From: a virus
Length of the DNA: 35,729 nucleotides
Reading direction: 5' to 3' (one strand)
IMG/VR virus record: IMGVR_UViG_3300035698_030034
Coordinates: 1-35,729 of that record
Below the pieces are notes generated by a model. It did not search any database and had not been told where the DNA came from. It was given only the letters and a program-made list of their open reading frames with translations. This document shows positions 5,168-35,279 of this stretch, piece by piece. The position numbers and the translations under genes were made by a program. Positions within the stretch are counted from its first letter, which is position 1; each line of letters opens with the position of its first letter.

Positions 5168-5176
5168 GGAGCAAAC

Positions 5177-12478: not shown

Positions 12479-15400
12479 ATGATCTTATTTGATAAAGAAC
12501 CTTTTGTAAGTTTATTTGAAGATGACACTATAGAAGGAATAAAGATATTCCAAGATGATGTCACATTCAATGGCGATGTCACATTCAATGGTACAATTAG
12601 TGCGCCTGGTAATGATACTGAGGTTATATTTAATGATGGTGGGTTCTTAGCGGCCGACCCTGGACTTACATACAACAAGACCACTGACACCCTCGCCTCT
12701 GGGATATTCACAGATGGCACCCTTTCTATTGGGTCTGGATCTATTACAGACGCAATACACGGGACTTTCTCTGGAACCCTTCAGGCAGGGCAATTAACAA
12801 GCACAGATAACGCAAACATTACAAATACGCTTACCGCTGGAACGCTTACAGACGGCACTCTCTCAATAAACTCAGGTTCAATCACAAGTGCTGTAAATGG
12901 TACATTCTCAGGGACATTACAAGCAGAACAGCTTACAAGCACAGATGATATTGATGCTGTTGGAAATATATCGTCGAGCACAGGAAGCATGTTTGTTGCG
13001 TCTGGACAAGACTATCATATTAATAATGTAGGGTTTACTGACATAGCTTCTGGAGCATCTGGTGCTGGACTGGTTGGCGTTGCCGATGATGGGCTACACT
13101 TTGTAGGTGAAGAGGTGGAATCAGTTTTACAAGAAATTGGTAAAGGGTACGAGATAACAAAAGAACCAACAGGATTTACAAATCCAGAGAACGTCATAAT
13201 TACTGGGGATTCATCAACAAGGACAGTTACGTTAACAGGTTCAGACTGGGAAACATATTATAGGAACATATTAAATACAACAATTGTTACCGGATGGACC
13301 TCACCTGAACATAGTGCTACAACAGGGACGGGATATTTCCTAGTATACGATGGAACAACAATAGAGTGGGTTGCATTTGCAGATCTTGGTGAGAACTTCT
13401 TTCACGATCTTTTGATTGCGATTGCTTTTTACAACACAAATAATGGGAATTGGGTATACCAGCGGGAATGTCATGGATTGATGGAATGGCAGACACACAG
13501 GGCAGAACATAGGGCTGTCGGAACATACAAACAGAGCGGTGGAACATTAGCGGACTATGTATTAAACTCAACTACTGCATCCAATAGGCGACCTTCTGTA
13601 AGTTCAGCTTTAATTTACGATGAAGATTTGCCGACAACAATTACGGCTTTACCAGTTGATACTTACACGCAATATTATATAGCAGGCGCAGGTGGTACAG
13701 CTAATTTCATAACTGGCTCTACAGATATTGTTCCTCTAAGTGGATCTCGTCCCTATTATAATCAATTTACTGGTGGAGCTTGGCAGCAAACATTAATGTC
13801 AAATAATTATCACATGAATATTTATGTGCTTGATTTCCAGACAGCAGCAGATGTGCCAAGTCAATTGTTAAGAACTCAATTCGTCCAAGGGCAAGCACAA
13901 TTTGCATCACTTACTGGAGCACAAGCGGAAACTACAAACGATATAAACCTTGGAACCTTAGACGACCTAACACCAGAGCTAGTTTTTATAGCTAAGATTA
14001 TTATTAAGTATCAGGGTGGAAACTGGAAAATTATTGAAGTTGAGGCACTTACAGGAACAAAATCTAATCAAGTAAGTAGTCCAACTGGAAACTATTTAAG
14101 CTTAGTTGAAACAGACACGACTTTAACAGGACTTGGTACAGTAGCTTCACCTTTAGGAATTGATCCTCTTGCTGACATTGTGTGTGAGTCCCTCACCGTA
14201 ACTGACACGACAGCGGGCTATACAGAAATAGATTTCACTTCAAGTGCTGGGAACTCCGTTGCGATAACATACGATACAGCTTCTTCCGTTTCGGAAACGT
14301 GGGCGAGATCAAGCACCCCAATCTTTTCACAAAGCTACTCAGCAGTAGCCGAATATATGGTATTTAACGCTGATTCTAAGGTATGGAGAATTAGTAAAGC
14401 TGGTCAAATGGGTATCGGTGGTGATGAAGATGCAAGTTATGCTTTAAAGGTTACTGGTAACTCGCAGGTTACAGGTAATATGCTTACAGGTGATTTTGAA
14501 TCGCTTGATGATGTAATAGTTGGTGATTTGATGCAGGCAGGTCGTGGTCAAATCACTAACGATTTTGCTGTTTTTAAAAACACGAAACTCTTAGGAACTC
14601 TTGGTGTTAATACTGATGCACCAGATAAGCAGGTGGAAATAAACTCTGCAACAGGTGATAATTTACGCCTTACATATAATGATGCAAACGGTTCCGCAAC
14701 TAATTATTGCGATTTTGGTGTTGATTCTACTGGAAAACTTGGGATAACGCCTTCTGGAAATTCAGTAGTTGTAAACAAAAGTCTTATCGCTTTAGGCAAC
14801 GGTGATTATTCTTTAGATTGGGGAAATACAACTGCTTTTGGAAGACTAACATATAGTGGGTCAGACCCTCAAATCACAAGTCTTGGTGATTCAATTATCT
14901 TTAAAAATGTATCAGATGGCACAGAGGGCTTCCAGATTCAAGATGCCGCAGGTCTTGCAGTTTTAACAGCTGACACATCCACACCTCAAGTTATTGTTGG
15001 TAGCACTTCTCAGGCAACGGATGCCATCCTCAATTTACAAACAGGTGCGAATTTAGAATGTGAGCTAAGGTTCTCTGATAATGCAGGGCTTGCCGCGCGG
15101 ATACTATACAATCATCAATTTAATTTATATGAGATGTATACGAGTGGTGGGAAGTTTCAAGAAGTGCTTTCTACGGGAGCGGTAACATTTAAAAACTCAA
15201 CCAATAGCACATCAGCTTTTCAGGTGCAGAATTTAGCAGCGACAAGCATATTAAATGTTGATACTACTAATTCAATATTCACAGTAGATGGCTTTGGCGT
15301 AATCCAGCATGATGACGGAGCAGCATCACCATCACATGGAGCAGCACCAACCTTTACAGTTTCAAATACGAATGCACTTGGGTCAATAAACCATCGTGCA

Positions 15401-17617
15401 GGAATATATCTAAAACAATACGCATCTGATAATGCAACACAACATACTCACTCGATAGTTTCAGAAGATAACAAGCTTATACTACGAGCGAGTTCAACTA
15501 ATTCTCTTGTATTGCAAGACGATGGTGGCAACGTCGGGATCGGGACGACTTCGCCAGGCGAAAAACTACATGTAAACGGTAAAGTATCAATCGGAACAGA
15601 TAATGACAAATTTAAGTTATCTGATGAATCAACATATAGAAAAATACAAAGTTACGGGGGCGCCGACTTGTCGATTAACCCTGATGGCAACAACGTCGGT
15701 ATTGGGACGACTACGCCAGGGACAGCACTACATGTTTATAATACAAGCAACCCTCAGCTAAAGATAGAGGATGGAGGCGATGCAGGAGAAGCTTCTATCT
15801 TGTTCGCAAATTCTTCCAAGCAGTACTTGATGGGTGTTGACGGCGGCGGAGTTGCAGATGGGTTTTTCATTTACGATGGAACGACACGATTTGCTATAAC
15901 TGATGCAGGAGTCGCAGTAATTGGGGCGACTACGGCAACCGCAGGTTATCTTTTGGACGTAAGAGGAAACATTCTAAGTTTAGCAGCAGGTCAAAATGAT
16001 TCTCGTATAGAAGCAGGCGGAACGGAAGAGTTCGCAAATCTTTATTGGGAAAATTCAGTTAGGGAATACGCTTGGCAGTTGACTAATACAGGCACTTTTA
16101 AGCTTTATGACGACACAGCGAATGCGGATAGGTTAGTTCTTGATACTTCTGGCAACTTTACTGTCCCAATAGATGGATACATAGTTTTTGGGCCCAACAC
16201 ATCATGGTCGGAAACGTTATCTATTGGTGGAAATGGTGATGTGCATACAGGAGCTTCAATAGCAACTACCAACGGAAACTTGCACATTGATGCTAAAGAT
16301 GGGGCGTTCGCTACATATATTAATCACTACGGGGGCACCGGCGGAACTATTTTTGGTAATGGTGCATCTGGCGGAAATATTGCAGCAATAACTAGTACAG
16401 GAAATATAGGAGCAGGAATAACATTTCCTGCGTCAAGAGGCCATTTCCACAGCACCTCAGCATCAACAGACATAAGATTATTATTAACAGACGCAACAAC
16501 GGGGGCAACTAGCACAGACGGATTCGCACTAATTAAAAATACAAGTGAACAGGCCTTCGTGTGGAACTACGAAAACGCAGATATGTTTCTCGGCGTTAAT
16601 AATACTAAGGTTGTGCATATGGCTAGTACTGGCAACTTTGGTGTGGGTGCAGATATCACAACACCACAGCACCTTGTTGAGATCCGAAAAAATACAAACA
16701 GTACAATTAACGACATTCTCCAACTCACTAATTATATTAATGTTGATGACTTTTTAGGATCAAGAATTCTATTTTCGTCGGGTGGAAATTCAGCAACTTC
16801 ACATCATCAAAGCTCCATTGAGGGCGGCCATACATCTGGGGGTAATACGTATCTTGCTTTCAGAACGAACGTAGGTGCGAACTACAACACAGATACGGAA
16901 GCAGTGAGGATTGATCATAATGGAAATCTTATTGTTGGCGGAACTACGGCAAACGAATCATTCGACGTATCAAGCACTACCAATGCAGCGATGGCCATAT
17001 CTTGTGGCTCAGGCTATCAATGTGATCTCTGGTTTTATGAAGGAGCTACAATACAAGGCGGGATACGCTACGCCAATTCTGATAACAAGCTATATTTTTT
17101 CGCTAACACAGTTTCTGCAGTAACGATATCATCTACACAACTTTTGCCTATCAATGATAACGCTTTTGATTTGGGAAGCACTTCGGCGGCATTTGCAAGC
17201 GTTGTCGCCCATGTCTTCACAGATGACACATGCGCAACTTTCAAAGACCATACGACAGAAGAGCTATATAACATGTTTAATCAGATACAGCCGCACACAA
17301 ACGGCCTCCTACATACATCTGGTAACGGACAGTTCTTTAGATATATGGACAAGTCAACCCTTCCAGATGAACTAGCAATACACGCCAAAGAAGACACGAT
17401 AAGAAAGAACATGCACCGCATCATTCCCGGTGAAGCATTCCGAAGAGGACTTAAAGAAAAAGACGTTACCTCGAATGTAAACGTTAACTATAAAAAAGGT
17501 GAGAAATGTGCTATTGATATGGGACAATTCCTATACTCAACTAATGAATTATTGCTAAGAGCATATGACCAAATACAAACACTTGAAACTAGAATCGCTT
17601 TATTAGAAGCGGCATAA
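12479..17617 (+). CDS. Giant tail fibre
   Basis: A 1712-residue fibre, probably trimeric, for host attachment. The N-terminus (FDKEPFVSLFEDDTIEGIKI) would anchor to the tail. An 18-base tandem repeat then encodes DVTFNG twice. Two copies of a unit TDGTLSI-SGSIT...GTFSGTLQA-QLTSTD follow (about residues 78-160). The shaft contains about eight spaced versions of GNVGIGTTSPGEKLHV, a motif of beta-rich fibre shafts. The C-terminus (DLGSTSAAFASVVAHVF..., about residue 1560 on) is followed by a basic segment and a closing coiled coil (QIQTLETRIALLEA), like the chaperone ends of fibres, but I see no clear S74 catalytic pair. Codon use differs from neighbours (many ATT, CTT, GTT), suggesting acquisition by transfer. 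Confidence 0.8.
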   Translation: MILFDKEPFVSLFEDDTIEGIKIFQDDVTFNGDVTFNGTISAPGNDTEVIFNDGGFLAADPGLTYNKTTDTLASGIFTDGTLSIGSGSITDAIHGTFSGTLQAGQLTSTDNANITNTLTAGTLTDGTLSINSGSITSAVNGTFSGTLQAEQLTSTDDIDAVGNISSSTGSMFVASGQDYHINNVGFTDIASGASGAGLVGVADDGLHFVGEEVESVLQEIGKGYEITKEPTGFTNPENVIITGDSSTRTVTLTGSDWETYYRNILNTTIVTGWTSPEHSATTGTGYFLVYDGTTIEWVAFADLGENFFHDLLIAIAFYNTNNGNWVYQRECHGLMEWQTHRAEHRAVGTYKQSGGTLADYVLNSTTASNRRPSVSSALIYDEDLPTTITALPVDTYTQYYIAGAGGTANFITGSTDIVPLSGSRPYYNQFTGGAWQQTLMSNNYHMNIYVLDFQTAADVPSQLLRTQFVQGQAQFASLTGAQAETTNDINLGTLDDLTPELVFIAKIIIKYQGGNWKIIEVEALTGTKSNQVSSPTGNYLSLVETDTTLTGLGTVASPLGIDPLADIVCESLTVTDTTAGYTEIDFTSSAGNSVAITYDTASSVSETWARSSTPIFSQSYSAVAEYMVFNADSKVWRISKAGQMGIGGDEDASYALKVTGNSQVTGNMLTGDFESLDDVIVGDLMQAGRGQITNDFAVFKNTKLLGTLGVNTDAPDKQVEINSATGDNLRLTYNDANGSATNYCDFGVDSTGKLGITPSGNSVVVNKSLIALGNGDYSLDWGNTTAFGRLTYSGSDPQITSLGDSIIFKNVSDGTEGFQIQDAAGLAVLTADTSTPQVIVGSTSQATDAILNLQTGANLECELRFSDNAGLAARILYNHQFNLYEMYTSGGKFQEVLSTGAVTFKNSTNSTSAFQVQNLAATSILNVDTTNSIFTVDGFGVIQHDDGAASPSHGAAPTFTVSNTNALGSINHRAGIYLKQYASDNATQHTHSIVSEDNKLILRASSTNSLVLQDDGGNVGIGTTSPGEKLHVNGKVSIGTDNDKFKLSDESTYRKIQSYGGADLSINPDGNNVGIGTTTPGTALHVYNTSNPQLKIEDGGDAGEASILFANSSKQYLMGVDGGGVADGFFIYDGTTRFAITDAGVAVIGATTATAGYLLDVRGNILSLAAGQNDSRIEAGGTEEFANLYWENSVREYAWQLTNTGTFKLYDDTANADRLVLDTSGNFTVPIDGYIVFGPNTSWSETLSIGGNGDVHTGASIATTNGNLHIDAKDGAFATYINHYGGTGGTIFGNGASGGNIAAITSTGNIGAGITFPASRGHFHSTSASTDIRLLLTDATTGATSTDGFALIKNTSEQAFVWNYENADMFLGVNNTKVVHMASTGNFGVGADITTPQHLVEIRKNTNSTINDILQLTNYINVDDFLGSRILFSSGGNSATSHHQSSIEGGHTSGGNTYLAFRTNVGANYNTDTEAVRIDHNGNLIVGGTTANESFDVSSTTNAAMAISCGSGYQCDLWFYEGATIQGGIRYANSDNKLYFFANTVSAVTISSTQLLPINDNAFDLGSTSAAFASVVAHVFTDDTCATFKDHTTEELYNMFNQIQPHTNGLLHTSGNGQFFRYMDKSTLPDELAIHAKEDTIRKNMHRIIPGEAFRRGLKEKDVTSNVNVNYKKGEKCAIDMGQFLYSTNELLLRAYDQIQTLETRIALLEAA
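12557..12591 (+). repeat. 18-base tandem duplication in the fibre gene
   Basis: GATGTCACATTCAATGGC (12557-12574) is followed by GATGTCACATTCAATGG (12575-12591). It encodes DVTFNG-DVTFNG near the fibre N-terminus. Perfect identity suggests a recent duplication that keeps the frame. Confidence 0.85.
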
Positions 17618-17634
17618 CAAAAAGGAGAAATAAT

Positions 17635-17865
17635 ATGTCAATCGAGTATGTAGACAATAGTGATGGAACATGGAGCAAGAAAACAATAAGTGATAATGGT
17701 GTGGTAACAATAGACGCTCCTCAAACACAAGCTAAAACAGTAGCAGATCTTGAAGCAAAGAAAGAAGCTAACCTACTTGCTAGCGCAGCAGACCAAACAA
17801 GGATAGAAGTAAGGATAACAGAGAACGCAGAAATCGATGCACAAATAGCTATAATAAAAGGATAG
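17635..17865 (+). CDS. Unknown 76-residue protein downstream of the fibre
   Basis: Starts behind AAAGGAG. The first third is beta-like (YVDNSDGTWSKKTISDNGVVTID) and the rest is a charged amphipathic helix (ADLEAKKEANLLASAADQTRIEVRITENAEIDAQI) that could form a coiled coil. Position suggests a fibre-assembly helper or small tail component; no family is recognised. Confidence 0.6.
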   Translation: MSIEYVDNSDGTWSKKTISDNGVVTIDAPQTQAKTVADLEAKKEANLLASAADQTRIEVRITENAEIDAQIAIIKG

Positions 17866-17896
17866 TAAGTTAACCAAAACCAATAGGAGAATAAGT

Positions 17897-18070
17897 ATGC
17901 AATACCTAATCGAAGAAGAAGCACTAAAAAACATCAACCAAATATTAATGAAAACTCCTTATGAATTTGCACAACCATTAATAGCCAACCTAAATGCTGT
18001 CAAACCATTAAAAGAGGAGGTTAAAACCCCAGCACCTAACAAAGGGCCTAAAAGCAAGCCTAAAAAATAA
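17897..18070 (+). CDS. Unknown 57-residue protein with Lys/Pro-rich tail
   Basis: ATG 17897, preceded by AGGAGA, to TAA 18068-18070. The sequence begins MQYLIEEEALKNINQILMKT, an acidic helix, and ends in a disordered Lys/Pro tail. Not recognised. It lies between two small genes with short gaps, so it is part of the same transcript. Confidence 0.55.
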   Translation: MQYLIEEEALKNINQILMKTPYEFAQPLIANLNAVKPLKEEVKTPAPNKGPKSKPKK

Positions 18071-18081
18071 AGGCGGGGTAT

Positions 18082-18375
18082 ATGAAGGATGAGATCCATC
18101 AATGTAAAAGTATAGCAATACATGAAAGGATTGCAATAATGGAGCAAAAAATAAGCACCCTAGAAGGAAATTTCTCTGGGATATTTAAAAGGCTAGATGA
18201 ATTAAAAACTACCCTTTCAGAACATAGAATGAATAATCTAAGAAGTATAATAACTCAAGTATTATATCCATTAGTAGTTGTATTTATTGTGTCATTCTTT
18301 AATAATAAAACTATAGAAGTGGTTGAAGTGCAAAAATCTGTGGAAGGAGTAAAAAATGTCCAGCAAGAATCCTGA
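18082..18375 (+). CDS. Coiled-coil protein with one membrane helix (possible lysis-associated protein)
   Basis: A 97-residue protein behind GGCGGGG. Residues about 5-50 form a charged coiled coil (IAIMEQKISTLEGNFSGIFKRLDELKTTL), residues about 55-72 a single hydrophobic span (ITQVLYPLVVVFIVSFF), and a 24-residue charged tail follows. An N-terminal coiled coil before one membrane helix resembles XhlA-type haemolysin/holin-associated proteins, but here the helix is not at the very end. It could instead be a membrane-anchored virion or lysis-control protein. The 3' end overlaps the next small gene by 20 bases. Confidence 0.6.
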   Translation: MKDEIHQCKSIAIHERIAIMEQKISTLEGNFSGIFKRLDELKTTLSEHRMNNLRSIITQVLYPLVVVFIVSFFNNKTIEVVEVQKSVEGVKNVQQES

Positions 18376-18487
18376 AAATACAAAGAATAAAAAGAAGAGA
18401 AAAGTAAAAAGAAGCTTTAAAGTAAAAGGTGGCAATCGTACAGAAAAGGCTATAGCCATCATACATAAAATGAACAAGGATAAATAG
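18356..18487 (+). CDS. Unknown 43-residue very basic protein
   Basis: ATG 18356 behind GGAAGGAG, stop TAG 18485-18487. The sequence starts MSSKNPENTKNKKKRKVKRS and is about one third Lys/Arg, ending in a short helix. It overlaps the preceding membrane-protein gene by 20 bases in another frame, a sign of real coupled translation. It could bind nucleic acid; no family is recognised. Confidence 0.5.
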   Translation: MSSKNPENTKNKKKRKVKRSFKVKGGNRTEKAIAIIHKMNKDK

Positions 18488-18498
18488 GAGGTTATACT

Positions 18499-19368
18499 AT
18501 GGCATTAGGAGATGGTACAGGGTGGGATGAAGATGCCCCATTAAATTCAGATGCAGCTAGAAATGGTGATGATGAGATAAGAGATCTCCGTAAGGGAGTT
18601 CGTATAAGAGATGAGAAAGAACACGCTACAAACGCCTCCAGTTCAGCAGGCGGGGAACATAAGGAAGGATCCGCTAAAGCCTACTATGAGGCCTCTGATC
18701 CTACCAACAGACCAGATGGTTCAACAGCCCTAACAAGTGATGATGCTGGTAGATTAATGGTGGATTCTGATGATGCTACTCTACGCCACTACAGTGGATC
18801 TGCCTGGGTAGATACTAATGTAGCTTCCATAGTAGATCGTACTGCCGGAACAGTAGCAGCCAGCTTACCAATAGTAGCAGGAGCAGATAAAGATGTAGAT
18901 ACATTAGACATCATAGCTCCTAAAATAAATGGGGTAGCAATAACATCTACAGGGGCAGAAGTTAACTCTCTAGATATAATGGCAGAAGCTACAGCAGCAA
19001 GAGCAGTTATCATAGATGGGGACGGTAAGCTAACAAGTTCAGATACTACATCCACAGAAGTAGGATATGTAAATGGAGTAACCTCTGCCATCCAAACCCA
19101 ACTAGCTGCTAGAATAGCAGCCCACGGACTAGGTAACGCAATAATAGCCTTAGGGACATCTTCTTTTTCTTCTCCTGGAGGTGTAAGAGCAATAACTTTC
19201 GGCTATACCTTTGGGGCTGCCCCTCTTATATTTATAAATGGCGGATGCTATTACTCGGGAACTACGTGGTATGAAGCCGCAACTACTGAAGGATTTACTG
19301 CAAAGTCTAATCAAGGAGATGATGCAGGAGGAGCATTTTCTTGGCTAGCAATAGGGACAGCCCCTTAA
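18499..19368 (+). CDS. Second tail fibre / receptor-binding type protein
   Basis: A 289-residue protein. The N-terminus (MALGDGTGWDEDAPLNSDAARNGDDEIRDLRKGVRIRDEKEHA) is a common phage tail-fibre opening. A segment with NGVAITSTGAEVNSLD and EVGYVNGVTSAIQTQLAA follows, the familiar fibre shaft motif. The last 70 residues (GGVRAITFGYTFGAAPLIFING) resemble small C-terminal binding domains of fibres. Between shaft and C-terminal domain lies ARIAAHGLGNAI (codons from 19108), which is identical in DNA to part of the large internal protein gene. That places a recombination-like join exactly at a domain boundary. Confidence 0.7.
   Translation: MALGDGTGWDEDAPLNSDAARNGDDEIRDLRKGVRIRDEKEHATNASSSAGGEHKEGSAKAYYEASDPTNRPDGSTALTSDDAGRLMVDSDDATLRHYSGSAWVDTNVASIVDRTAGTVAASLPIVAGADKDVDTLDIIAPKINGVAITSTGAEVNSLDIMAEATAARAVIIDGDGKLTSSDTTSTEVGYVNGVTSAIQTQLAARIAAHGLGNAIIALGTSSFSSPGGVRAITFGYTFGAAPLIFINGGCYYSGTTWYEAATTEGFTAKSNQGDDAGGAFSWLAIGTAP
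19108..19143 (+). repeat. 36-base perfect repeat, copy 1 (in second tail fibre gene)
   Basis: Starts GCTAGAATAGCAGCCCACGG and ends AACGCAATA. It is identical to 24065-24100 and in the same codon phase in both genes, encoding ARIAAHGLGNAI. The flanking bases differ immediately outside. Confidence 0.92.
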
Positions 19369-19382
19369 TAAGGAGTATATAA

Positions 19383-21449
19383 ATGTCATACGATAAAGAA
19401 ACAAATATAAGAGAAGTATTCTACCCAATGTCTGGGTTGGACTTTCGTGTTCCAGATACTCAGAAAGATCCTAAGTTTGCCTCTTCTATGCAAAATCTTA
19501 AACTAAAAGATGGCATAATCCAAAAGGCCCAAGGCACTGCTAAATATGGATTCGCAGCAACTGACCTTCCTCTTATGTCTGGTGCCTCCTTCTCCAGGAT
19601 GAACCAATATGTCCATGCTGATAGAACAGCAGAGATGTTGGCCTACGGAGAGGACTATATCTACATATATGACACTAGTAACAATGTATGGCAAAATGTT
19701 TCTAGAGCTTCTTCAATAACAGACTGTGAGACAGCTTTCACAGCTTCCGCTAATGTAACCTCCACCGCGGACGAAACTGTAGTAAGAAGAGGAACAGCTT
19801 CTTCTAAAAATATTATAGGAGCAGCTTTTACTACAGGATTAGCATCATATATAAACTTTACTTCCCTAGACATATCTGCTGACAACACCCTATACCTATG
19901 GATGCAGTCAGACATAGCCACCACAGCAGATGATATACGTATAAGATTGTCAGAGGAGAATGCAGGAGGCACAGGAGCCACATATGCAGACTACTCTATC
20001 CCTGCCCTAACGGCTGGAATATGGACAGAGATATCTATAACCCTATCTACCTCCATAGCATCAGATGGAGGAACTTACCCAGATGATCTAGATGCCCTCC
20101 TGTCAGCCTCTCTTATAGTAAACGTAGACAACGGTGCACAAACTATCTACATCGACGACATACGCTCTCCAGAAGCGTACACAGGACTCCAAACAGACCA
20201 TTGGAAAAACACAGTCCACAGATTTCAAAACATGGCTACTAATAATGTAGATGAGATCCAGAGGAAAGACTCCGCAGCTAACTTTATACAATTATCTGGA
20301 GCAACTTCATACAGAGCTAAAAATATAAGATCTTTCCAAGAACGCCTCAACCTATTCAACACTACAGAATCTGGAACTCCATACCCTAGAAGAGTACGTT
20401 GGTCCATCCCACAAGCATTATCCTATGCCACAACTGATTGGACCAATCCAGGATTTGGTTTCACAGATCTCCAAGGAGGCCAAGATGCAATACTAACAGT
20501 AGAATATTTAGGCTCCACAACTATAGTAATATATCTAGAAGAATCTGTATTCACTATGGAATGGGTTGGTGGGGATTCTATCTACAACTTTACCTCTACT
20601 ATGAGTGGAGTTGATGTAGGTCCTATATCAGATCGTGCTGTCACCACGGACGGAAACAGTCACTACGTTATGACTAAGTTTAATCTATACCGCTATGATG
20701 GTGGTACTCGCAAAGTCGACATAGGCGACCCTGTCAAGGAACTCCTATTCGCCTCCCTAAATGATGAGAATGTAGATAAAATAGAAGCATACTATAACTC
20801 GGACGATGAAGAAGCTTGCTGGATGGTTCCTACCACCACAGACGACCCAGACTCAGTATGGTGCTACAATACCAAACTAAACTCTTGGAGAGGCCCTCTA
20901 AAAAGAGACTGGTATTCCATAGGCTACTATACCCAACAAGACAACACAATCTGGGGGGATCTTATTGGCTCTTGGGATGCCCAGAACTGGAGATGGGGAG
21001 ATAGAACAAATAGGGCTAGTGCCCCCATCCTAGTAGTCGGAGGATATAATGGATACATATACTACATAAACCCAAACATCGTAGACATAGATTCATCAAC
21101 AGCCCAGGACGCATTCTTTATCACAATAACTTTCACATCCCAAGGAAATGTAGACACCGATGAAGGTAACGTAGGTAACTATTCTAGAGACATGGTTAGA
21201 TGGAAAAGATTAGCCCTAGACCTAGCTGGTAACTCTGTCACCATATCCTATAGCCTAGACAACGGCCTAAACTGGATAACCCCTTCCCCATGGACAGATG
21301 TAACTTTAACAAGTGCCTTTTCTGTACGAGATTTCTATTTTGATATAGTAAACAGAACTATAAAATTCAGAATACGCAATTCAGATGCTGGATCTAATTT
21401 TCAACTACGCTACATGAGGGTAGATTCTCAATTAGAGGAAGAAAACTAA
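19383..21449 (+). CDS. Tail nozzle / stabilisation protein (probable beta-propeller)
   Basis: A 688-residue protein of the type that forms the nozzle or tail tip of short-tailed phages. The N-terminus (GLDFRVPDTQKDPKFASSMQNLKLKDGIIQKAQGTAKYG) and later repeats (AYGEDYIYIYDTSNNVWQNVS, LGSTTIVIYLEESVFTMEW, MTKFNLYRYDGG, WCYNTKLNSWRG) look like beta-propeller blades. Residues about 120-275 form an inserted beta-sandwich (RGTASSKNIIGAAFTTGLAS...IYIDDIRSPEAYTG) like a carbohydrate-binding module. It ends with a C-terminal strand domain (FQLRYMRVDSQLEEEN). It would extend the adaptor ring and guide DNA into the cell. The stop overlaps the next ATG. Confidence 0.65.
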   Translation: MSYDKETNIREVFYPMSGLDFRVPDTQKDPKFASSMQNLKLKDGIIQKAQGTAKYGFAATDLPLMSGASFSRMNQYVHADRTAEMLAYGEDYIYIYDTSNNVWQNVSRASSITDCETAFTASANVTSTADETVVRRGTASSKNIIGAAFTTGLASYINFTSLDISADNTLYLWMQSDIATTADDIRIRLSEENAGGTGATYADYSIPALTAGIWTEISITLSTSIASDGGTYPDDLDALLSASLIVNVDNGAQTIYIDDIRSPEAYTGLQTDHWKNTVHRFQNMATNNVDEIQRKDSAANFIQLSGATSYRAKNIRSFQERLNLFNTTESGTPYPRRVRWSIPQALSYATTDWTNPGFGFTDLQGGQDAILTVEYLGSTTIVIYLEESVFTMEWVGGDSIYNFTSTMSGVDVGPISDRAVTTDGNSHYVMTKFNLYRYDGGTRKVDIGDPVKELLFASLNDENVDKIEAYYNSDDEEACWMVPTTTDDPDSVWCYNTKLNSWRGPLKRDWYSIGYYTQQDNTIWGDLIGSWDAQNWRWGDRTNRASAPILVVGGYNGYIYYINPNIVDIDSSTAQDAFFITITFTSQGNVDTDEGNVGNYSRDMVRWKRLALDLAGNSVTISYSLDNGLNWITPSPWTDVTLTSAFSVRDFYFDIVNRTIKFRIRNSDAGSNFQLRYMRVDSQLEEEN

Positions 21450-21760
21450 TGGTAGATAATATACTAATAAGACCTACATTAAGATATATAACTTCTTCTT
21501 TAAAGGATGCAGAGACTATAGATGATATAGTAACTATATTAGAAGAATTAATATCTTCCTTAGATATAGATAGAAGAAGATTAATATCAACCTTACAGAA
21601 GTTAGGATCAGAATCATATGAACTTGGTTCTACTTATTATATATATTACGGAGACTCTGACACAAATGGTTCTTGGAGGACTGGAAGAGATGGTAATAAT
21701 CTAGTCCAACAAAGAAGAGAATCCGGAAGTTGGGTTACCAAAGATACCATAACCCCTTAA
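21449..21760 (+). CDS. Unknown 103-residue protein
   Basis: Starts at an ATG overlapping the previous stop (TAATGG). It has a helical N-terminal half (ETIDDIVTILEELISSLDIDRRRLISTLQKLG) and a short aromatic/Gly segment (YYIYYGDSDTNGSWRTGRDGN), ending in a strand. Not recognised. Translational coupling to the nozzle gene suggests a tail or core component. Confidence 0.6.
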   Translation: MVDNILIRPTLRYITSSLKDAETIDDIVTILEELISSLDIDRRRLISTLQKLGSESYELGSTYYIYYGDSDTNGSWRTGRDGNNLVQQRRESGSWVTKDTITP

Positions 21761-21775
21761 AGGAGGCTATATAAA

Positions 21776-22606
21776 ATGGGATTATCTGATTTATTATTTG
21801 GAAGTTCAAAGTCTACTCCAACAACTGTGCAACAAGCACCTACCACAACACCTGAACAACAGGAATTACTTAAACAACTAACCACCATTGTATCTGGTAA
21901 GTTTAGTAAATCTGGTGGAGATATACCTACAGCCACTCCATTTGAAGGAGAAAGAGTAGCAGGCTTATCTCCACTAGAACAACAAGGCAGGGAAAGATTC
22001 TCCACCTTAGCAGATCTATCCCAAAAAGGCCTATCTCCTCTACTTTCTGGAACAGTTACCCCAGAACTACAGAAAGCCTTTCAACAATCAGTAGTAGATC
22101 CATCTATAAGAAATTTTGAACAAGACATCTTACCTACTGTCCAAGAACAATTTATAGGATCAGGCACCTTTGATGGTTCCCCAAGGGCACTTGCCGTAGG
22201 AAGAGCAGCAGGGGATCTTGCTTCATCTATAACCCAAGCTAGGGGTAACTTGGCCCTCAATGTATTTAACGCCCCCCTACAAGCCACAGGTGTAGCTACA
22301 GACTTAGCTAAATCAGAAGCAGACCTTGGTGCTACAGAAAGGGGAATAGATCAAGCTGGCCTCAACGCAGCTTTCAATGAATTTATCCGTACATCACCAG
22401 AAAGCTCCCCCTATATAAGCATAGCTACAAAAATATTAGGCCTAGGAGGAGGGTTTCAAAATATAGTAACACCAGGCACAACTACACAAACTAAAGGAAT
22501 TGCTAGTTCGCTATCTAATTTAGTTTCACAATTTATTCCAGGAAGTTTTCTTCTGCATCTAGTGTACCTAAAACTGGAACTGGTACAGCTGGTTTTAAAC
22601 CAATAA
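21776..22606 (+). CDS. Internal virion / DNA-ejection type protein with a probable C-terminal frameshift
   Basis: A 276-residue Gln/Thr- and Ala-rich protein in the ejection gene block. It starts MGLSDLLFGSSKSTPTTVQQ behind GGAGG and contains long helices (TPELQKAFQQSVVDPSIRNFEQDILPTVQEQF) and a Gly segment (ILGLGGGFQNIV). The last residues as read (FLLHLVYLKLELVQLVLNQ) are unlike the rest. In the -1 frame, a single-base slip back at TTTTC (about 22545) gives SSASSVPKTGTGTAGFKPITF, ending at TAG 22612-22614. That reads like a natural end and leads straight into the next gene's ribosome site. This could be a programmed slip, a mutation or a sequencing error in a T-run. Confidence 0.6.
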   Translation: MGLSDLLFGSSKSTPTTVQQAPTTTPEQQELLKQLTTIVSGKFSKSGGDIPTATPFEGERVAGLSPLEQQGRERFSTLADLSQKGLSPLLSGTVTPELQKAFQQSVVDPSIRNFEQDILPTVQEQFIGSGTFDGSPRALAVGRAAGDLASSITQARGNLALNVFNAPLQATGVATDLAKSEADLGATERGIDQAGLNAAFNEFIRTSPESSPYISIATKILGLGGGFQNIVTPGTTTQTKGIASSLSNLVSQFIPGSFLLHLVYLKLELVQLVLNQ

Positions 22607-22624
22607 CTTTTTAGGAGATATACC

Positions 22625-23677
22625 ATGGCTATAGTAGTACCTAAAACAATAATAAAAAAACCTAGTCCTATAGGTCAGATACTATCTGGGCTAAGTCAAG
22701 GAGTTCAGGACGTCCAACAAAGAGGAATTCAGCAACAACAACTAAACCTTCAAGATCGTCAACAAACTAGACTAGAAGAACAAGCTCAACAAACTAAATT
22801 CATAAACACCCTAAATGCGGGAGCATCCCTAGGAAAAGCTTTCCAAGGACAGCCGGAAAAATTAGCTGACTTTAGATCTAACCTAGAAAACGACCCTCAA
22901 GTATTTCAATCAGGAATGAGCTTTGCTATAGATATAGCAGATGCAGTAGCTAGTCTACCCCAAGAAGCTAGTAAGATTCTAGGAGAAGTAAAATTAGGCC
23001 TAATCAATGGAGTCAAAGACAACCCTAACCTAACCCCAGAACAAAAAGCTAAGAACATCCAAGATATAATAACAGGATCTACTGCTTTATCAGAAGGAGC
23101 TAGGCTTAATCTAAAAGCTAGAGAAGAGTTAACTAAACTAAACGACATCAAACAGAAAGCTAGGTTAGATGTCCTATCAAACACTCTAAATTTCGATGTA
23201 GATCGTAAAACAGGCCAAACTATAATGGCCCCGGAAGCTCAACAGGCCATATCTCAAATAGATGCATCCATCAACCCTCGTATAGAAGAGCTATCCAAAC
23301 TATTCACCCAAACAGAAGGGGCAATAGAAAAGGACAAATCTGATAAAGAGAACATCCTAAACAGCATATCAGAAGTAGAATCCATCTCCCCCCAAGAAAG
23401 AGAAGAGCTATCTAAACTTCCTATAGAAGACCTCAACGCTATCTTACTAGAACTAGGTGCTACCAACACAGGCCCAGACTTAAACTCAACCGAAGCCCAA
23501 TCTATGCAAACCAGGCAAGCACAGAACAACGAAGCCGACAATCAAAATGTTCCTGGAAGATTAGATCAACTAATAAATACAATAGCAGCCGGATTTAAAA
23601 AAAGATCTCCTTTGGAATTACTAACGTTATCTGAATTTGTATTTCCAGACAAAAGAAAAGAACTTAGGGGGAAATAA
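22625..23677 (+). CDS. Internal virion protein, coiled-coil (probable)
   Basis: A 350-residue, mostly helical, Gln/Lys/Glu-rich protein behind TAGGAG. Residues about 25-65 (VQQRGIQQQQLNLQDRQQTRLEEQAQQTKF) and 180-265 are coiled coils. It ends with FPDKRKELRGK. It lies between a 276-residue and an 1188-residue protein, the usual arrangement of core proteins that sit in the capsid above the portal and enter the cell first. No enzymatic motif is seen. Confidence 0.6.
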   Translation: MAIVVPKTIIKKPSPIGQILSGLSQGVQDVQQRGIQQQQLNLQDRQQTRLEEQAQQTKFINTLNAGASLGKAFQGQPEKLADFRSNLENDPQVFQSGMSFAIDIADAVASLPQEASKILGEVKLGLINGVKDNPNLTPEQKAKNIQDIITGSTALSEGARLNLKAREELTKLNDIKQKARLDVLSNTLNFDVDRKTGQTIMAPEAQQAISQIDASINPRIEELSKLFTQTEGAIEKDKSDKENILNSISEVESISPQEREELSKLPIEDLNAILLELGATNTGPDLNSTEAQSMQTRQAQNNEADNQNVPGRLDQLINTIAAGFKKRSPLELLTLSEFVFPDKRKELRGK

Positions 23678-23680
23678 TAA

Positions 23681-26600
23681 ATGGGTACACGAGTACAAGA
23701 AGCTCTTAAAAGATTAAAAGATAAAAAAGTGTCATCCTCTGCCAACATAGGCTTAGAATCATTTGAATCTGAGAAACCCCCTGTAAAGGACGCTGGTATC
23801 ATAGCCAAGTCAGCGGCCCAGGGATTCGCCACAGTCCTGGACTTAGCCAAAGGAGTAACCCTACACCTCACAGAGAAACTCCCAGCAGTAAAAGCCCTAC
23901 GCGAAGGCCAAGAAGCATTCTTCTCTCAACAAGATCTAGGACGCCCAGAAATAATATCAAAAGTAGGAGTCATCCTAGGAGAACTACTTCCTATATCTAA
24001 ATTCACTAAACTAGGTATGGCAATCACAGCCCCAGGGCTTCTAACAAGAGGCTCTACCCCTCTAGCTAGAATAGCAGCCCACGGACTAGGTAACGCAATA
24101 GCAGGGGCAGGTTTTGAAGGAGCCAAGGGAATAATAGAACAAGAATCCCGTGGTGATCTTATGAAAGATATGGCCACATCAGCAGCATTATGGGGAGGTA
24201 TGGGTGGTGGCCTACGAGCATTCAAAGAACTCCCAGCAGTCAAGGAATTTTCTATCTTCAAAAAAATAATGGACAATGCTAAACCTATAGTTAGAAAACA
24301 CAAACCTATAACTACTAGAGGAGCTGTTGCAGGGACTATAGAAAAATCAGCAGAACGAGTAGCTATGGAAAATTACCTAACTGGAGTAAATAAACGCTCC
24401 AAAGGAATGCTAGAAAAAAACCTACATCTAGGAGATTCAAACTTCAAAGGAATTGCTAAGATGACAGATAAAGAACTAGCAGTCCTCACAAGAGAAAACC
24501 TTCGCCGTTCTATGACTCCATCCACTCTACGAGAAATGGGTAATTACATGAATGGGGAACGTGTAGGAAAGATGATAAAAAAATTAGCCGAAGGTTTAGA
24601 TGATGTAGATCCAGGACTTACCCCATTCGGAGAAGTGTTCTCCAACCTCACAGATCGTAGCGCTAAATCTCTATCTATGCCATTATTTTTAGCCAAAAAA
24701 CACCCAACCACCTTTGGAAAGGTATTTGATTCTGTAGACAATGGGATAGCTAGAAAGGAACTTATACGAAATCGAGCCATAGAGACAGCTAACGAATTTA
24801 AAGACTTCTACACCCTCCCCAACACATCACGACAAAGAGTATTCGATGCCATTTACCAAGAAGATGCATCTAGCTTAGGGGAATTCTCCAACCGTGCTTT
24901 TGGAGCACTAGCCGACTCCGAAAAAATAGTCTACAACCAACTTAGAAAATCCTCTTGGTGGGGGAAGTATTCCCTTAGAGAATCTATCAAACAATCTCAA
25001 GGTTACTACCGCACCCAAGACTTAACCTTAAAATCTAAAATAGAAAAAACCGTAAACGACCTCATAGGAAAACCTATAACTAAAAAGATAACCCAAGGAG
25101 TAGACATAGGAGCACCTGAGGCCAACATAGACATAATAGGGTGGCAAGGAGGTAAGATCCCAGGCTACTTTCCCCGTGGCAATAAAGGTAGATTTGTAGC
25201 ATGGATTCCTGGAGTAGACAAGGGAGACCCCTCCCAATTCGTATCTAAGTTCGATGACATCAAGGAAGCCCGCAAAGCCTTAGTAGATTACAGGAAAGCC
25301 AACAACCTAGCAGACGATGTAGGAGGAGTATTTAAACCTCAAGAATTTAATGCTAGGCGCCCCTTAGAATCTATCCGCAGCCTAGACCTAGAAGCAGTCG
25401 CCTCCCGTGCAGGCCTCCACCCAGAGGACACCTCCATCCAAGCGCTCAAAAAACAAATGTTCGACGACTCCAACTTCACCCATCTCATGGAACGTAAGAA
25501 TGTCCCAGGCTACAAAACAGATTGGAAAAGTGGAGAGCAAGCCCTCAAAGATTTTATAGACTCCACATCATCTAAATACGGCAAATCCATAGCCAACATA
25601 GAAGCCCAATCCCACATGGCAACTCTCCCTGAAGGCAATATGAAAGAATACGCCAAAAACTTCCTAGGCGTATACAACAATTCCACCTCATCTAAACTAG
25701 ACTCAGGAATCCGTGCCTTAATAGGAACCCACTACCTAGGAGGATCAATATCCTTCTTAGCCCAAAACCTAACCCAACCAATAGTGACAACCTGGAATGA
25801 ACTAGCTCATCACGTTGGTCCCGGAATCTCCGAAGTTATCTTTGCTAAAAATTATAAAACAGCAGCCCAAGTAGTAACCTCTCTCTACAAAAAGAACGTC
25901 CCCCTACCATTATCTATCCAAAACAATAAACAATTAATGGTAGGATTAAGAGAAGCTATGAAAACTGGTGTTCTTGGAGGTCAGTTCGTATCTGAGGCTC
26001 TCCCTCTCCAGGGTAAAGGAAAAATAAAAGAAGCATTCATTAACGAAGGCCTCATCTCAGTTATGAAAGAAGGATCAAAAGATGTATTCCGATACATGGG
26101 GGCCTTCGGTACCCTAACAGAACGCTTAAATAGAACTCATGCTTTTTTATCTGGATGGGAAGTAGCTACCAAACATAAAAAATTAGCTGGTGACGCCGCT
26201 CTAAAATTTGCTAAAGACTTTGCTAATTTAACCCAGTTCAAATATGGCCTACAATCCATGCCTCAACTAATAACAGGAGTTGGAAAACAAACTGCCCTCA
26301 ATAGCACAACTAAAAATTTCTTTCTATTCCAATCTTATGCCCCCAACGTAATCCATCGACTAGCCAGAACCGTCACCCCTGAGGCAGGACAACCCGCCCT
26401 CAACAAATTCTGGGAAGTTGCCACAACCATGGCAGGTATGGGAGGCATGGCAGGTGTAAAAGGAGTCCCAGCATATGGACTTCTAAAATACGGAATGAAC
26501 AAATGGGGACTAGATCCAGAAGTGGAAATTAAACGAGGACTAGAAAAAGTCGGTATCCCTGAGACAGCTCAGAATGTAATAACCAGAGGCCTACCTACCC

Positions 26601-27247
26601 TAGCTGGAATAGACGCTTCCCGCCTCGTAGGAATAGGAGAATTCCCTAGTGGCATACTTGGAGTAGGAGAAGAACAAAATCCCCTAATAGCCCTATCTGG
26701 AGCAACTGGAGCTATGGTCATATCTTATCTCCAAGGACTAGACTCATCTCGTGATGGAGACTACATGGGGGCAGCAGAAAAGATGGCCCCTCGTTCAATA
26801 GGTCGTAAGTTTAGATCCGCCCGATGGATGACAGAAGGAGTTCGTAGCAAGTCAGGCAAAACCATAATCCCAAGAAAATCTCTAACCCCTAAAGATATCT
26901 TCCTAGGATCCATAGGCCTACCCCCTCTAAAAGTAAACCTAGCATATGACAAGGAAAACTACGAACAATCCATCATAGAACATTCTCGCAATCAAGCATC
27001 TTACTATAACCAAATCTTAGCCAAAGCTATCTTCGAAAAGGATTATAAAAAAGCCCGCACCATAAGGCAAGAGGTAAGAGAAAAGAACAGAAAACTCCCA
27101 GCCTCTGGTAGAATAGAAATAAAGCAACGTAACTTAGAACAGAGAATAACAAACCTTCGTTTATCAGCTAGGGGAAAGAGATCAAGAACTACCCCTAAAA
27201 AACTAACTCGAAAGCTGAGGAATGAAGAGAGATTTTTTAAATCATAA
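23681..27247 (+). CDS. Very large internal virion / ejection protein
   Basis: 1188 residues. The first 60 are charged. Residues about 90-190 are Gly/Ala-rich and hydrophobic (GVILGELLPISKFTKLGMAI, then NAIAGAGFEGAKGIIEQ and AALWGGMGGGLRAF), a possible membrane-inserting stretch. The middle is helical and charged. Residues about 880-1000 include hydrophobic stretches (FFLFQSYAPNVIHRLARTVT, VATTMAGMGGMAGVKGVPAYG). The C-terminus is strongly basic (RGKRSRTTPKKLTRKLRNEERFFKS). Size, order and composition match the largest core protein of short-tailed phages, which forms a conduit across the cell envelope. I do not see a clear lysozyme or transglycosylase motif. It carries copy 2 of the 36-base repeat. 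Confidence 0.65.
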   Translation: MGTRVQEALKRLKDKKVSSSANIGLESFESEKPPVKDAGIIAKSAAQGFATVLDLAKGVTLHLTEKLPAVKALREGQEAFFSQQDLGRPEIISKVGVILGELLPISKFTKLGMAITAPGLLTRGSTPLARIAAHGLGNAIAGAGFEGAKGIIEQESRGDLMKDMATSAALWGGMGGGLRAFKELPAVKEFSIFKKIMDNAKPIVRKHKPITTRGAVAGTIEKSAERVAMENYLTGVNKRSKGMLEKNLHLGDSNFKGIAKMTDKELAVLTRENLRRSMTPSTLREMGNYMNGERVGKMIKKLAEGLDDVDPGLTPFGEVFSNLTDRSAKSLSMPLFLAKKHPTTFGKVFDSVDNGIARKELIRNRAIETANEFKDFYTLPNTSRQRVFDAIYQEDASSLGEFSNRAFGALADSEKIVYNQLRKSSWWGKYSLRESIKQSQGYYRTQDLTLKSKIEKTVNDLIGKPITKKITQGVDIGAPEANIDIIGWQGGKIPGYFPRGNKGRFVAWIPGVDKGDPSQFVSKFDDIKEARKALVDYRKANNLADDVGGVFKPQEFNARRPLESIRSLDLEAVASRAGLHPEDTSIQALKKQMFDDSNFTHLMERKNVPGYKTDWKSGEQALKDFIDSTSSKYGKSIANIEAQSHMATLPEGNMKEYAKNFLGVYNNSTSSKLDSGIRALIGTHYLGGSISFLAQNLTQPIVTTWNELAHHVGPGISEVIFAKNYKTAAQVVTSLYKKNVPLPLSIQNNKQLMVGLREAMKTGVLGGQFVSEALPLQGKGKIKEAFINEGLISVMKEGSKDVFRYMGAFGTLTERLNRTHAFLSGWEVATKHKKLAGDAALKFAKDFANLTQFKYGLQSMPQLITGVGKQTALNSTTKNFFLFQSYAPNVIHRLARTVTPEAGQPALNKFWEVATTMAGMGGMAGVKGVPAYGLLKYGMNKWGLDPEVEIKRGLEKVGIPETAQNVITRGLPTLAGIDASRLVGIGEFPSGILGVGEEQNPLIALSGATGAMVISYLQGLDSSRDGDYMGAAEKMAPRSIGRKFRSARWMTEGVRSKSGKTIIPRKSLTPKDIFLGSIGLPPLKVNLAYDKENYEQSIIEHSRNQASYYNQILAKAIFEKDYKKARTIRQEVREKNRKLPASGRIEIKQRNLEQRITNLRLSARGKRSRTTPKKLTRKLRNEERFFKS
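24065..24100 (+). repeat. 36-base perfect repeat, copy 2 (in the 1188-residue gene)
   Basis: Identical to 19108-19143, in the same codon phase, encoding ARIAAHGLGNAI. In this gene the segment fits its hydrophobic Gly/Ala-rich surroundings, so this copy may be the original. Confidence 0.92.
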
Positions 27248-29961: not shown

Positions 29962-30042
29962 CTACTTAAAACTATTCAAAAATAAAGCTATAAACATCCC
30001 CATAATTAATATAAGTACTACCATAGCTATTGGGTCATACAT
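29962..30042 (-). CDS. 26-residue membrane microprotein
   Basis: The product starts MYDPIAMVVLILIMGMFIAL and has one membrane helix followed by a short basic end (FLNSFK). Its ATG lies eight bases inside the polymerase gene's 3' end, with GGGGAG seven bases upstream, so translation would be coupled to the polymerase. Function is unknown; small membrane peptides can anchor replication proteins or affect the host membrane. Confidence 0.4.
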   Translation of the reverse strand: MYDPIAMVVLILIMGMFIALFLNSFK

Positions 30043-32581
30043 ATTCTAACTCCCCCCATCTCTCTCCAACTTCAACCTCTATCGGAATAATAATATTCCT
30101 ACCCCTAATACTAACTGGCTCTTCCATAACCGTATGCAACAACTTAATAACCCTCTCCTTCTCCTCTATAGGAACCTCCAACATAATAGCATCATGAATT
30201 TGAAGTATTATCCTAGTCCCTAACCCCAACTCATCTATCTTACCCTGCACCTTCAACATACTAATATTAATCATATCCCCTACTGTGCTCTGTGGAATAT
30301 AATTAGTAGCCTCAGCATACAATTGCTCCCCAGACTTGGCAGCAAACAACCTCCTCCTACCATATACATTAGTAAGTACCCTACTTTTATTAACTTCATT
30401 CTCTACCCATTTATGAAACATCTTCACCTTTGGAAACTGTGCAAAATATTTAGCAATAAAGCTTGAAGCCTCAGACTGAGCGACGCCAAGAAACTCTGCC
30501 AATGTCTTAGCTCCCATTCTATAATTAGTTCCATGACCAATTCCTTTAGCAAGTTGTCTCTCCGAGGTCCCTTTTCCGCAGTCCTCAATTGGCTTATTAA
30601 ATACTCTGCTCGCAACGAAAGCATGCATATCACCTCCCTCTTCAAACATCCTCATCATAGTAGGCTCTTGGGCAATATATGCAACTATCCTACTCTCAGC
30701 ACTACTATAATCTGCCTCTATTAATATATGTCCTTCTTTAGCCTTAAACATATTTCTAATATCTTTATTCCTAGGTATATTCTGTAGATTAGTCCCTGTA
30801 CCAAATATAGTAGCTGACGAAGACATCCTAGAAGTCTTAGTACCCCCAACTTTATAATTAGTCCTCATCCTTCCATCTTTATCAGGTTTCTTATTCAAAT
30901 ACGTACTACACAATTTATATATCTTCCTCAATTCCAATATATATTTAAATATCTCTACATCAGGATTCCTAACACTAAAATACTTAATAGTCCCTTCATC
31001 TGCTGATATAGTCTTACCCCCTCCCACCCTCTTAGTATATCTAACACGAAATTTAAGTATCTCATACAAAAGTTCCTTCATCTGTATATGAGAGTTAATA
31101 TTTAACTCCGCATTCATAGCATTAACTACACCCTTCTTCGTAGTCAACTTATCTATCTTCCTTCCCGCCACTTCCAACTTCTTCTGCATAGTCTTAGTAG
31201 GTTTAACCTTAATAGCTTCCAGGCAATCTAAATACTTCTTCTTCTCCACCCCCAACTGTTCATATATATCTACAAGAACCTTTTCTTTAAAATCTTCTAT
31301 CTCTATATCCCTTCCAGTCAATTTACAATACTCAACATTAATCTTCTCCTCTAGCTCCACCATCTTCTCATCCAACTTCTTCCTAATAACTTTAACATAC
31401 TTCCCATCAACTAATATCCCTTCATCAGATACCTTATCCATAAGTACAACTATAGGATTAACCACCTTACAATAATAATCCCACATACCACATTCCATAA
31501 GCTCTGCTTCCACCTTTAGAGCACATTCCATAGTAATAGCAGAATCCAATGCAGAGTAATTAAAAAACTCTTCCATATCTCCATGCAGTCCATCTTTATA
31601 ATAAATTTGATCAGTATATATAGAACATATAAACCCTAATGATTTAGGAAAGTCAGCATACAACACATGATGTGCTTCCATCGTATCTAAATAATATCCC
31701 TTAGTCTCTATCCCATATCGCCACTTAAGAAACTTCATATCATAAGTCCCATTATGTGCTATCTTTCTAATCTTCTCATCTTCTAATATTTCCTTAATAG
31801 TCTTCCATATTTCCAACTCTTCCTTATAACTAAAAAACGATCCCCAAGCACCAAACCAAAAGGGTATACATACAGATCTAAACGTACCTTCAGAATAAAC
31901 AGCAAAACTTATAGCATTAACCTGATCTGTCTCCGTCTCAATATCAAAGGCTACTCCATAATGATTTAACTTAGCTGTAGATTTTATTGTCATCAATTCT
32001 ACCAATGCACTTAAGTAGTCCCTAGCTATAACCAACTTCCTATCCGTAGGCACATACTCCCCTTCGGCTATCCTCCTAGCCTTAGCTAGATCAACCAACC
32101 CTACGGGCCTTTCCTTAAACCCTCGCATAATAAAACTAGGATGATAGGTAGGGATGACATAACAATCAAACCTATGCGCCCAATATATGGAACCTCTAAC
32201 CTTACTTATAGCACCTTGTCCAGTTAGCGCCATAGAAGCTTCCCTACCTAACGCAACTATAACCTTCTTCCCTGCTATTCCATCTAATTCATCTCTTAAT
32301 TTGTTCCATATACCTTCCAGTTTGTATGTAGACTTAGTCTTAGACTTATCCATATATAAGTCAGAAAAATTACCATCTCCAACTCTGATCTTAAGTACAT
32401 TAGTAACATAGCACTCATCAAAATCTATCCCCACCTCCGACAACATCCCTTTGAGCACTCTCCCTGCCATACCATAAAAAGGTAACCCTTCCTTCTCATC
32501 TGTAACCCCAGGGACATCCCCCACCAATACTATCTTACAATCCCTAGGGCCTATCCCCATAACCACTCTAGCATCTATCAT
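30035..32581 (-). CDS. Uracil-DNA glycosylase-like domain fused to family A DNA polymerase
   Basis: An 848-residue replicative polymerase. Residues 1 to about 180 look like a family 4/5 uracil-DNA glycosylase: GDVPGVTDEKEGLPFYGMAG, the strand YVTNVLKIR and the IPTYHPSF motif. The cysteines that hold the iron-sulphur cluster in family 4 are not present in their usual spacing. A 3'-5' exonuclease follows (VAFDIETETD, then HNGTYDMKFL and YSALDSA), so proofreading residues are kept. The polymerase carries motif A ADYSSAESR (Asp about 624), the O-helix RQLAKGIGHGTNYRMG (Lys about 679, His about 683 where E. coli Pol I has Phe762) and motif C QIHDAIMLEVP (about 794-804). All catalytic acids are present. 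Confidence 0.88.
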   Translation of the reverse strand: MIDARVVMGIGPRDCKIVLVGDVPGVTDEKEGLPFYGMAGRVLKGMLSEVGIDFDECYVTNVLKIRVGDGNFSDLYMDKSKTKSTYKLEGIWNKLRDELDGIAGKKVIVALGREASMALTGQGAISKVRGSIYWAHRFDCYVIPTYHPSFIMRGFKERPVGLVDLAKARRIAEGEYVPTDRKLVIARDYLSALVELMTIKSTAKLNHYGVAFDIETETDQVNAISFAVYSEGTFRSVCIPFWFGAWGSFFSYKEELEIWKTIKEILEDEKIRKIAHNGTYDMKFLKWRYGIETKGYYLDTMEAHHVLYADFPKSLGFICSIYTDQIYYKDGLHGDMEEFFNYSALDSAITMECALKVEAELMECGMWDYYCKVVNPIVVLMDKVSDEGILVDGKYVKVIRKKLDEKMVELEEKINVEYCKLTGRDIEIEDFKEKVLVDIYEQLGVEKKKYLDCLEAIKVKPTKTMQKKLEVAGRKIDKLTTKKGVVNAMNAELNINSHIQMKELLYEILKFRVRYTKRVGGGKTISADEGTIKYFSVRNPDVEIFKYILELRKIYKLCSTYLNKKPDKDGRMRTNYKVGGTKTSRMSSSATIFGTGTNLQNIPRNKDIRNMFKAKEGHILIEADYSSAESRIVAYIAQEPTMMRMFEEGGDMHAFVASRVFNKPIEDCGKGTSERQLAKGIGHGTNYRMGAKTLAEFLGVAQSEASSFIAKYFAQFPKVKMFHKWVENEVNKSRVLTNVYGRRRLFAAKSGEQLYAEATNYIPQSTVGDMINISMLKVQGKIDELGLGTRIILQIHDAIMLEVPIEEKERVIKLLHTVMEEPVSIRGRNIIIPIEVEVGERWGELEYV

Positions 32582-34634: not shown

Positions 34635-35279
34635 TTATTTACATTCAAAATCCGTCAATGTTTCAATCCAACAATGCATGCAGTAATGTTTTTCTGTCCC
34701 CTCAAAAGTGCTAGTTATAAACTCCTCTGTTTCTCCGTGCTTCTTACATACAACTTTTTTAGATGCCGTAGAAATAGAAAAAGTACCTTTATCTTTATCT
34801 TTTAACGTATACTCGCTTTTATCACAAGATTCCTTAGGTATTGGTTGGGCGAATTTGTACCACATAGTAGAAACAGATTTACCTTCTTTAAAATCTACTA
34901 CTGCACGATCGTAAACAGCCTCGTAAGGCGTAATTGATCCATCGATATAACTCAAATAGGGCAGCCTCTTCCACTCCTCAATAGGCAAATTCTCATCATT
35001 ACTAAACAAAGCCTCTTCCCCGTACTCAAATGCGTGGCCTTCGAAGGCTGCTTGGTGCCAACGCCATACACCATCATCTTCTTCAATACGATAGTAAGCT
35101 CCACTCAAAGTAGAAATGCCCACCTCCTTTATTGTAACGACTTGTCCTAAAAAACTTTTCATGTCGCTTCTTATGTGAGAACCTTCCACCACTATATGCC
35201 CATTTTCATCCTCACCAAACTCCCTAATCAACCCCTTTTCATGTCTTAATCTTGCTTTGTCTCCTGCTTTTAAGTTCAT
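34635..35279 (-). CDS. SH3-like protein with C-terminal zinc-binding motif
   Basis: A 214-residue protein. The first 80 residues resemble an SH3/mind-bomb-like barrel seen in many phage early proteins (GDKARLRHEKGL, FLGQVVTIKEVG, YYRIEEDDGVWRWHQAAFEG). The end has CKKHGETEEFITSTF...CMHCWIE, a Cys/His set that would bind zinc. The start overlaps the upstream stop by four bases (ATGA). Function is unknown. The shared barrel suggests relation to the 139-residue protein encoded next. Confidence 0.6.
   Translation of the reverse strand: MNLKAGDKARLRHEKGLIREFGEDENGHIVVEGSHIRSDMKSFLGQVVTIKEVGISTLSGAYYRIEEDDGVWRWHQAAFEGHAFEYGEEALFSNDENLPIEEWKRLPYLSYIDGSITPYEAVYDRAVVDFKEGKSVSTMWYKFAQPIPKESCDKSEYTLKDKDKGTFSISTASKKVVCKKHGETEEFITSTFEGTEKHYCMHCWIETLTDFECK

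Follow-up and report, generated by a model that had tools for sequence, protein, structure and literature searches.

An exact in-frame 36-nucleotide repeat shared by a fibre-module joint and a putative ejection-protein gene of one phage

Mosaic joints in phage genes, as described in work on lambda Red (PMC2327257, PMC3945230), are among the closest known counterparts of the locus analysed here, in which unrelated modules likewise abut sharply in a gene of the receptor-binding type. The first of these studies notes that RecET can recombine sequences matching over 5-13 bp, and takes the view that phage mosaicism owes about as much to illegitimate as to homeologous recombination (PMC2327257); the second quotes a minimum of 31-34 bp for pairing by RecA and of 23-27 bp for Red-beta (PMC3945230). 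Short shared sequences also lie beside variable tail-fibre segments in the T-even phages, where, in the account cited in PMC12529663 (Tetart et al. 1998), recombination between conserved motifs of the adhesins swaps specificity. Two further systems offer partial likenesses: template switching and templated filler, treated in quasipalindrome work (PMC7202029), and diversity-generating retroelements such as that of BPP-1, in which a repeat is likewise common to the end of a receptor-binding gene. The present locus lies in a 35,729-nt stretch of viral DNA (IMG/VR record IMGVR_UViG_3300035698_030034, positions 1 to 35,729; hereafter the window) and differs from the known mosaic joints in that its joint holds a 12-codon filler that is still identical to part of another gene of the same genome. 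The features concerned are:

18499..18801, plus strand: N-terminal part (about 101 residues) of the fibre-like gene, common to related phages, with about 47-65% identity in IMG/VR relatives
18910..19107, plus strand: fibre shaft module, residues 138-203 (HTVC106P gp54; phrog_16122)
19105..19121, no strand assigned: perfect 7-bp inverted repeat with a 3-nt loop (GCTGCTA-GAA-TAGCAGC) spanning the left edge of the fibre copy; significance weak
19108..19143, plus strand: fibre copy of the exact 36-nt repeat (the patch), residues 204-215, ARIAAHGLGNAI
19144..19365, plus strand: fibre C-terminal module, residues 216-289, weak phrog_1396 match
19383..21449, plus strand: 688-residue virion structural protein (phrog_3287) between the two copies, whose homologues adjoin the fibre gene in relatives
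21776..22606, plus strand: 276-residue protein between the two copies, kept in relatives
23681..27247, plus strand: 1188-residue PLxRFG domain-containing protein (NCBIfam NF032893), putative ejection or internal virion protein
24059..24142, plus strand: Gly/Ala-rich stretch, residues 127-154, including the patch (AlphaFold2 without alignment, low confidence)
24065..24100, plus strand: ejection-gene copy of the exact 36-nt repeat, residues 129-140, ARIAAHGLGNAI

The two copies of the repeated sequence, GCTAGAATAGCAGCCCACGGACTAGGTAACGCAATA, lie at 19108-19143 and 24065-24100; they share strand and codon phase and are in direct orientation. As the initial annotation had reported, both begin on a codon boundary. 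The first codons are codon 204 of the 289-residue ORF 18499-19368 and codon 129 of the 1188-residue ORF 23681-27247, and each copy encodes ARIAAHGLGNAI. Apart from this pair, exact direct repeats in the window reach 17 nt at most, and the longest repeat in simulated sequences (Markov models of order 2 and order 4, 40 runs each) is at most 18 nt. Given the peptide, identity at 12 of 12 codons has a chance of ~4e-6 under the codon use of this genome, and on this ground the repeat is copied DNA; convergence at the protein level is ruled out by the same agreement together with the finding of the peptide nowhere else among the scanned sequences. A copy would land in a matching frame by chance about one time in three.

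Identity also ends as sharply as had been claimed: the bases flanking the two copies diverge immediately on each side, and the edges hold up under anchored gapped alignment of the flanks, which does no better than pairs drawn at random in phase (P = 0.22 on the left, P = 1.0 on the right). A longer shared segment interrupted by a gap was considered and dropped, the left-edge microhomology of 10/12 matching bases with a 3-nt gap (ACCC..CTAGCT; TQLA-A-R vs TPLA-R) being the one that gives P = 0.22.

As a base rate for such repeats we used 82 related or fibre-bearing IMG/VR loci (957 kb), counting as dispersed those copies that lie >300 bp apart. The longest dispersed direct repeat among them is 27 nt (in locus L012), and the sole longer match is a 144-nt exact inverted repeat of the portal-gene start at a contig end (L059, positions 4960 and 6325), which is probably an assembly artefact in that IMG/VR record. 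Seven phage isolate records (HTVC106P, T7, HTVC010P, P-SSP7, BPP-1, lambda and a 50-kb stretch of KpnP_ZX1) contain a single dispersed direct repeat of at least 36 nt, the T7 terminal repeat; the T7 promoters and the retroelement repeats of BPP-1 were both picked up by the search. These figures bound the rate per whole genome only loosely, since the related loci are incomplete and few isolates were used. The artefact-like repeat of L059 raises the question of whether one copy of the 36-mer has been wrongly placed in the window during assembly or library preparation. We regard this as quite unlikely: both ORFs are open and in frame through the patch, the gene order on both sides matches that of relatives, and a false join through the shared 36-mer would itself require the 36-mer to lie beside both genes.

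Residues 138-208 of the fibre protein are 47% identical to gp54 of pelagiphage HTVC106P, and the phrog_16122 match to the shaft stops at residue 206-208, just within the patch; HTVC106P goes on with IQTQLDAKQAS where the window has IQTQLAARIAAHG. From residue 215 onward the protein resembles phrog_1396 (tail fiber protein), though weakly (E 7e-4). Since the shaft match ends at 206-208 and the C-terminal match, weak as it is, starts at 215, the patch (residues 204-215) fills the joint at which module homology changes, and the placement between shaft and C-terminal module given by the initial annotation stands. The gene lies directly upstream of the 688-residue phrog_3287 gene, as it does in relatives, in which the N-terminus of about 100 residues is kept while the distal parts of those inspected differ from that of the window. 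Because the distal parts differ among relatives, this end of the gene is a place of exchange, and the architecture suggests the usual layout of a receptor-binding protein, in which the anchor is fixed and the tip can be exchanged. Upstream of the fibre gene, the window also encodes a 672-residue protein with a Laminin_G_3 domain (9718-11736) and a 1712-residue protein with weak tail-fibre matches (12479-17617), neither of which has a match among the related loci fetched.

The gene that contains the second copy is situated near the end of the virion module. Relatives too carry a very large ORF there, although no sequence similarity between these ORFs and the 1188-residue protein was detected. 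Its match to NF032893 scores 150.6 bits against a cut-off of 100 and covers residues 495-1161, and its position and size suggest that it is an ejection or internal virion protein. Structure models, predicted without alignments and with low confidence and thus taken only as a hint, show residues 127-154 as one continuous helix, in agreement with the earlier remark that the patch fits Gly/Ala-rich surroundings in this protein. As the patch falls inside one predicted Gly/Ala-rich helix (a low-confidence prediction), the large protein is the more likely source of the segment. Copying in the opposite direction, with the segment native to the fibre linker and then copied into the ejection-protein gene, seems unlikely. 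Codon composition leaves room for it, since it does not separate the two genes, and the AAR at the start of the patch would suit a DAK-like continuation of the shaft as in HTVC106P; in the large protein, however, the segment runs seamlessly on into the Gly/Ala-rich AGAGFEGAKG, and the fibre gene is the one known for exchanging parts.

We therefore consider it probable that the patch records a one-off and fairly recent ectopic copying event at the fibre-module joint, from the ejection-protein gene into the fibre gene. The fibre gene would have been joined or repaired between its shaft and C-terminal modules, with a 36-bp stretch of the ejection-protein gene, which lies some 5 kb further downstream, serving as template or filler, through illegitimate or templated recombination or through template switching by a polymerase. 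The copy would then have been retained in frame, giving a 12-residue linker that the joint could tolerate. A repeat of 36 bp can itself expose a genome to recombination, which is a further reason to suppose that the origin is recent. Of the proposals in the initial annotation, which named recent origin or active conservation as alternatives, a templated patch of probably recent origin agrees with the identity of the copies, the repeat statistics and the absence of the patch from relatives and scanned collections. Some observations weigh against the account: no microhomology at the edges is significant, no recombinase was recognised in the phage, and none of the relatives examined has the fibre gene in the form that it would have had before the event.

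The same annotation had also proposed that the repeat is a recombination site through which fibre ends are swapped, and this part is not borne out. The patch is missing from all 26 relatives that share the fibre N-terminus (0/26), all of them distant, and yet their distal parts differ. In the window the longest exact match between the fibre gene and the rest of its own record is 36 nt; in these 26 relatives it is 11-15 nt, so that no motifs of the T-even type are seen: those, in the cited account, recur across related adhesins, whereas only one of the two genes with the present sequence is a fibre gene. No recombinase was recognised among the family matches of this phage, in which several proteins of the reverse-strand module have no assignment. 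Of the deletion or inversion products that had been envisaged, inversion does not apply, since recombination between direct copies gives deletion or duplication; deletion would remove 4957 bp including the fibre end, the 688- and 276-residue genes and the start of the ejection gene, and the product is presumably not viable. Given that the relatives' ends differ without the patch, that no recombinase is recognised and that conserved virion genes would be deleted, the swapping site is unsupported.

More generally, it is very unlikely that selection keeps the 36-mer in both genes as a functional site in the DNA or a hot spot of recombination, be it for regulation, packaging or the exchange of fibre ends. 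The perfect identity of the copies would be expected of such a site, and 36 bp exceeds the minimal pairing of both RecA and Red-beta (PMC3945230). Against this, there are only two copies, both intragenic, they are absent from relatives whose fibre ends vary, recombination between them would cost the phage the conserved virion genes, and neither an unusual fold nor an Rfam or tRNA match was found for the 36-mer. On the latter grounds a promoter, terminator or RNA site at the patch was rejected as well. We also give very little credence to the notion that, whenever fibre ends are exchanged, the phage reuses short in-frame segments of its own virion genes as linkers, which would make copying within the genome a regular supply of new fibre joints, or to the notion that exchange still takes place at the 36-mer within the species.

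The edge of the fibre copy offers a possible hint at the mechanism. The arms of the inverted repeat there (19105-19111 with 19115-19121) pair over 7 bp, whereas at the ejection-gene copy only 4 bp pair; a template switch may be suggested by this, but chance alone would give the three additional pairs in about one case of 64. A short exact copy from elsewhere with an inverted repeat at one edge recalls the templated events of the quasipalindrome work (PMC7202029), from which the window differs in that the source lies about 5 kb away in direct orientation and the edge evidence is weak. A terminator-like hit on the minus strand (19122-19104) is this same edge hairpin, and such hits in the window are near shuffle level (10 found, mean 6.9). 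A diversity-generating retroelement was rejected: the copies are identical, and the larger ORFs, when scanned against protein families, gave no reverse transcriptase match. The locus further departs from BPP-1 in having no adenine-specific differences and in having its second copy inside a coding gene.

Small repeats of the kind dispersed in bacterial genomes were also considered. The relative L012 contains a 25-27 nt repeat, TGTCATTGCGAGCGAAGCGCGGCAA, at 5168, 16410 and 17382, always in the phase that encodes VIASEARQ and spread over two ORFs, with two of the three copies within a very large ORF (14791-20277). Its appearance is that of a dispersed repeat of bacterial type which has settled in genes of a phage. 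That the 36-mer is such an element lodged in two genes of the window is nevertheless highly improbable. It has two copies only, both within genes, and no third, degenerate copy was found; it is not palindromic as a whole and its fold z-scores are 0.2 to 0.7; and its coding core, RIAAHGLGNA, is absent in any codons from genome_contigs (84,980 species).

Beyond the window, neither the 36-mer nor the 12-residue peptide in any codons occurs in the scanned viral contigs, and in the scans of both these contigs and genome_contigs, records very near the window may be omitted; the search of related phage contigs for further carriers, proposed earlier, thus yields no other occurrence. Close relatives were sought by single-protein scans with the terminase, the ejection protein and the fibre, which gave nothing or one distant locus, and by a DNA-level search among phages, which gave no match. 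The fibre N-terminus found no relative in genome_contigs, and a portal alignment including the window is too diverged to serve as a search query.

The repeat is real and rare, and most likely the scar of a probably recent recombination event in one phage. Its kind is ordinary, and its unusual point is that the likely source of the scar is still identical within the same genome. A joint filler that still matches a plausible source in its own genome is seldom visible, as such scars blur, and it is relevant to the dispute about the part of illegitimate and of homologous recombination in phage mosaicism. Being a single case, it amounts to a curiosity and not to a system.

Two other features of the window deserve mention. 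A 25-nt repeat, 92% identical, at 35267-35291 and 35467-35491 covers the minus-strand ribosome-binding site and start codon of two adjoining genes and is perhaps a small gene duplication. The minus strand also encodes, at 30035-32581, an 848-residue protein that combines an N-terminal family-4-like uracil-DNA glycosylase domain with a family A DNA polymerase, a fusion that has weak full-length relatives in Bacillus phages and others.
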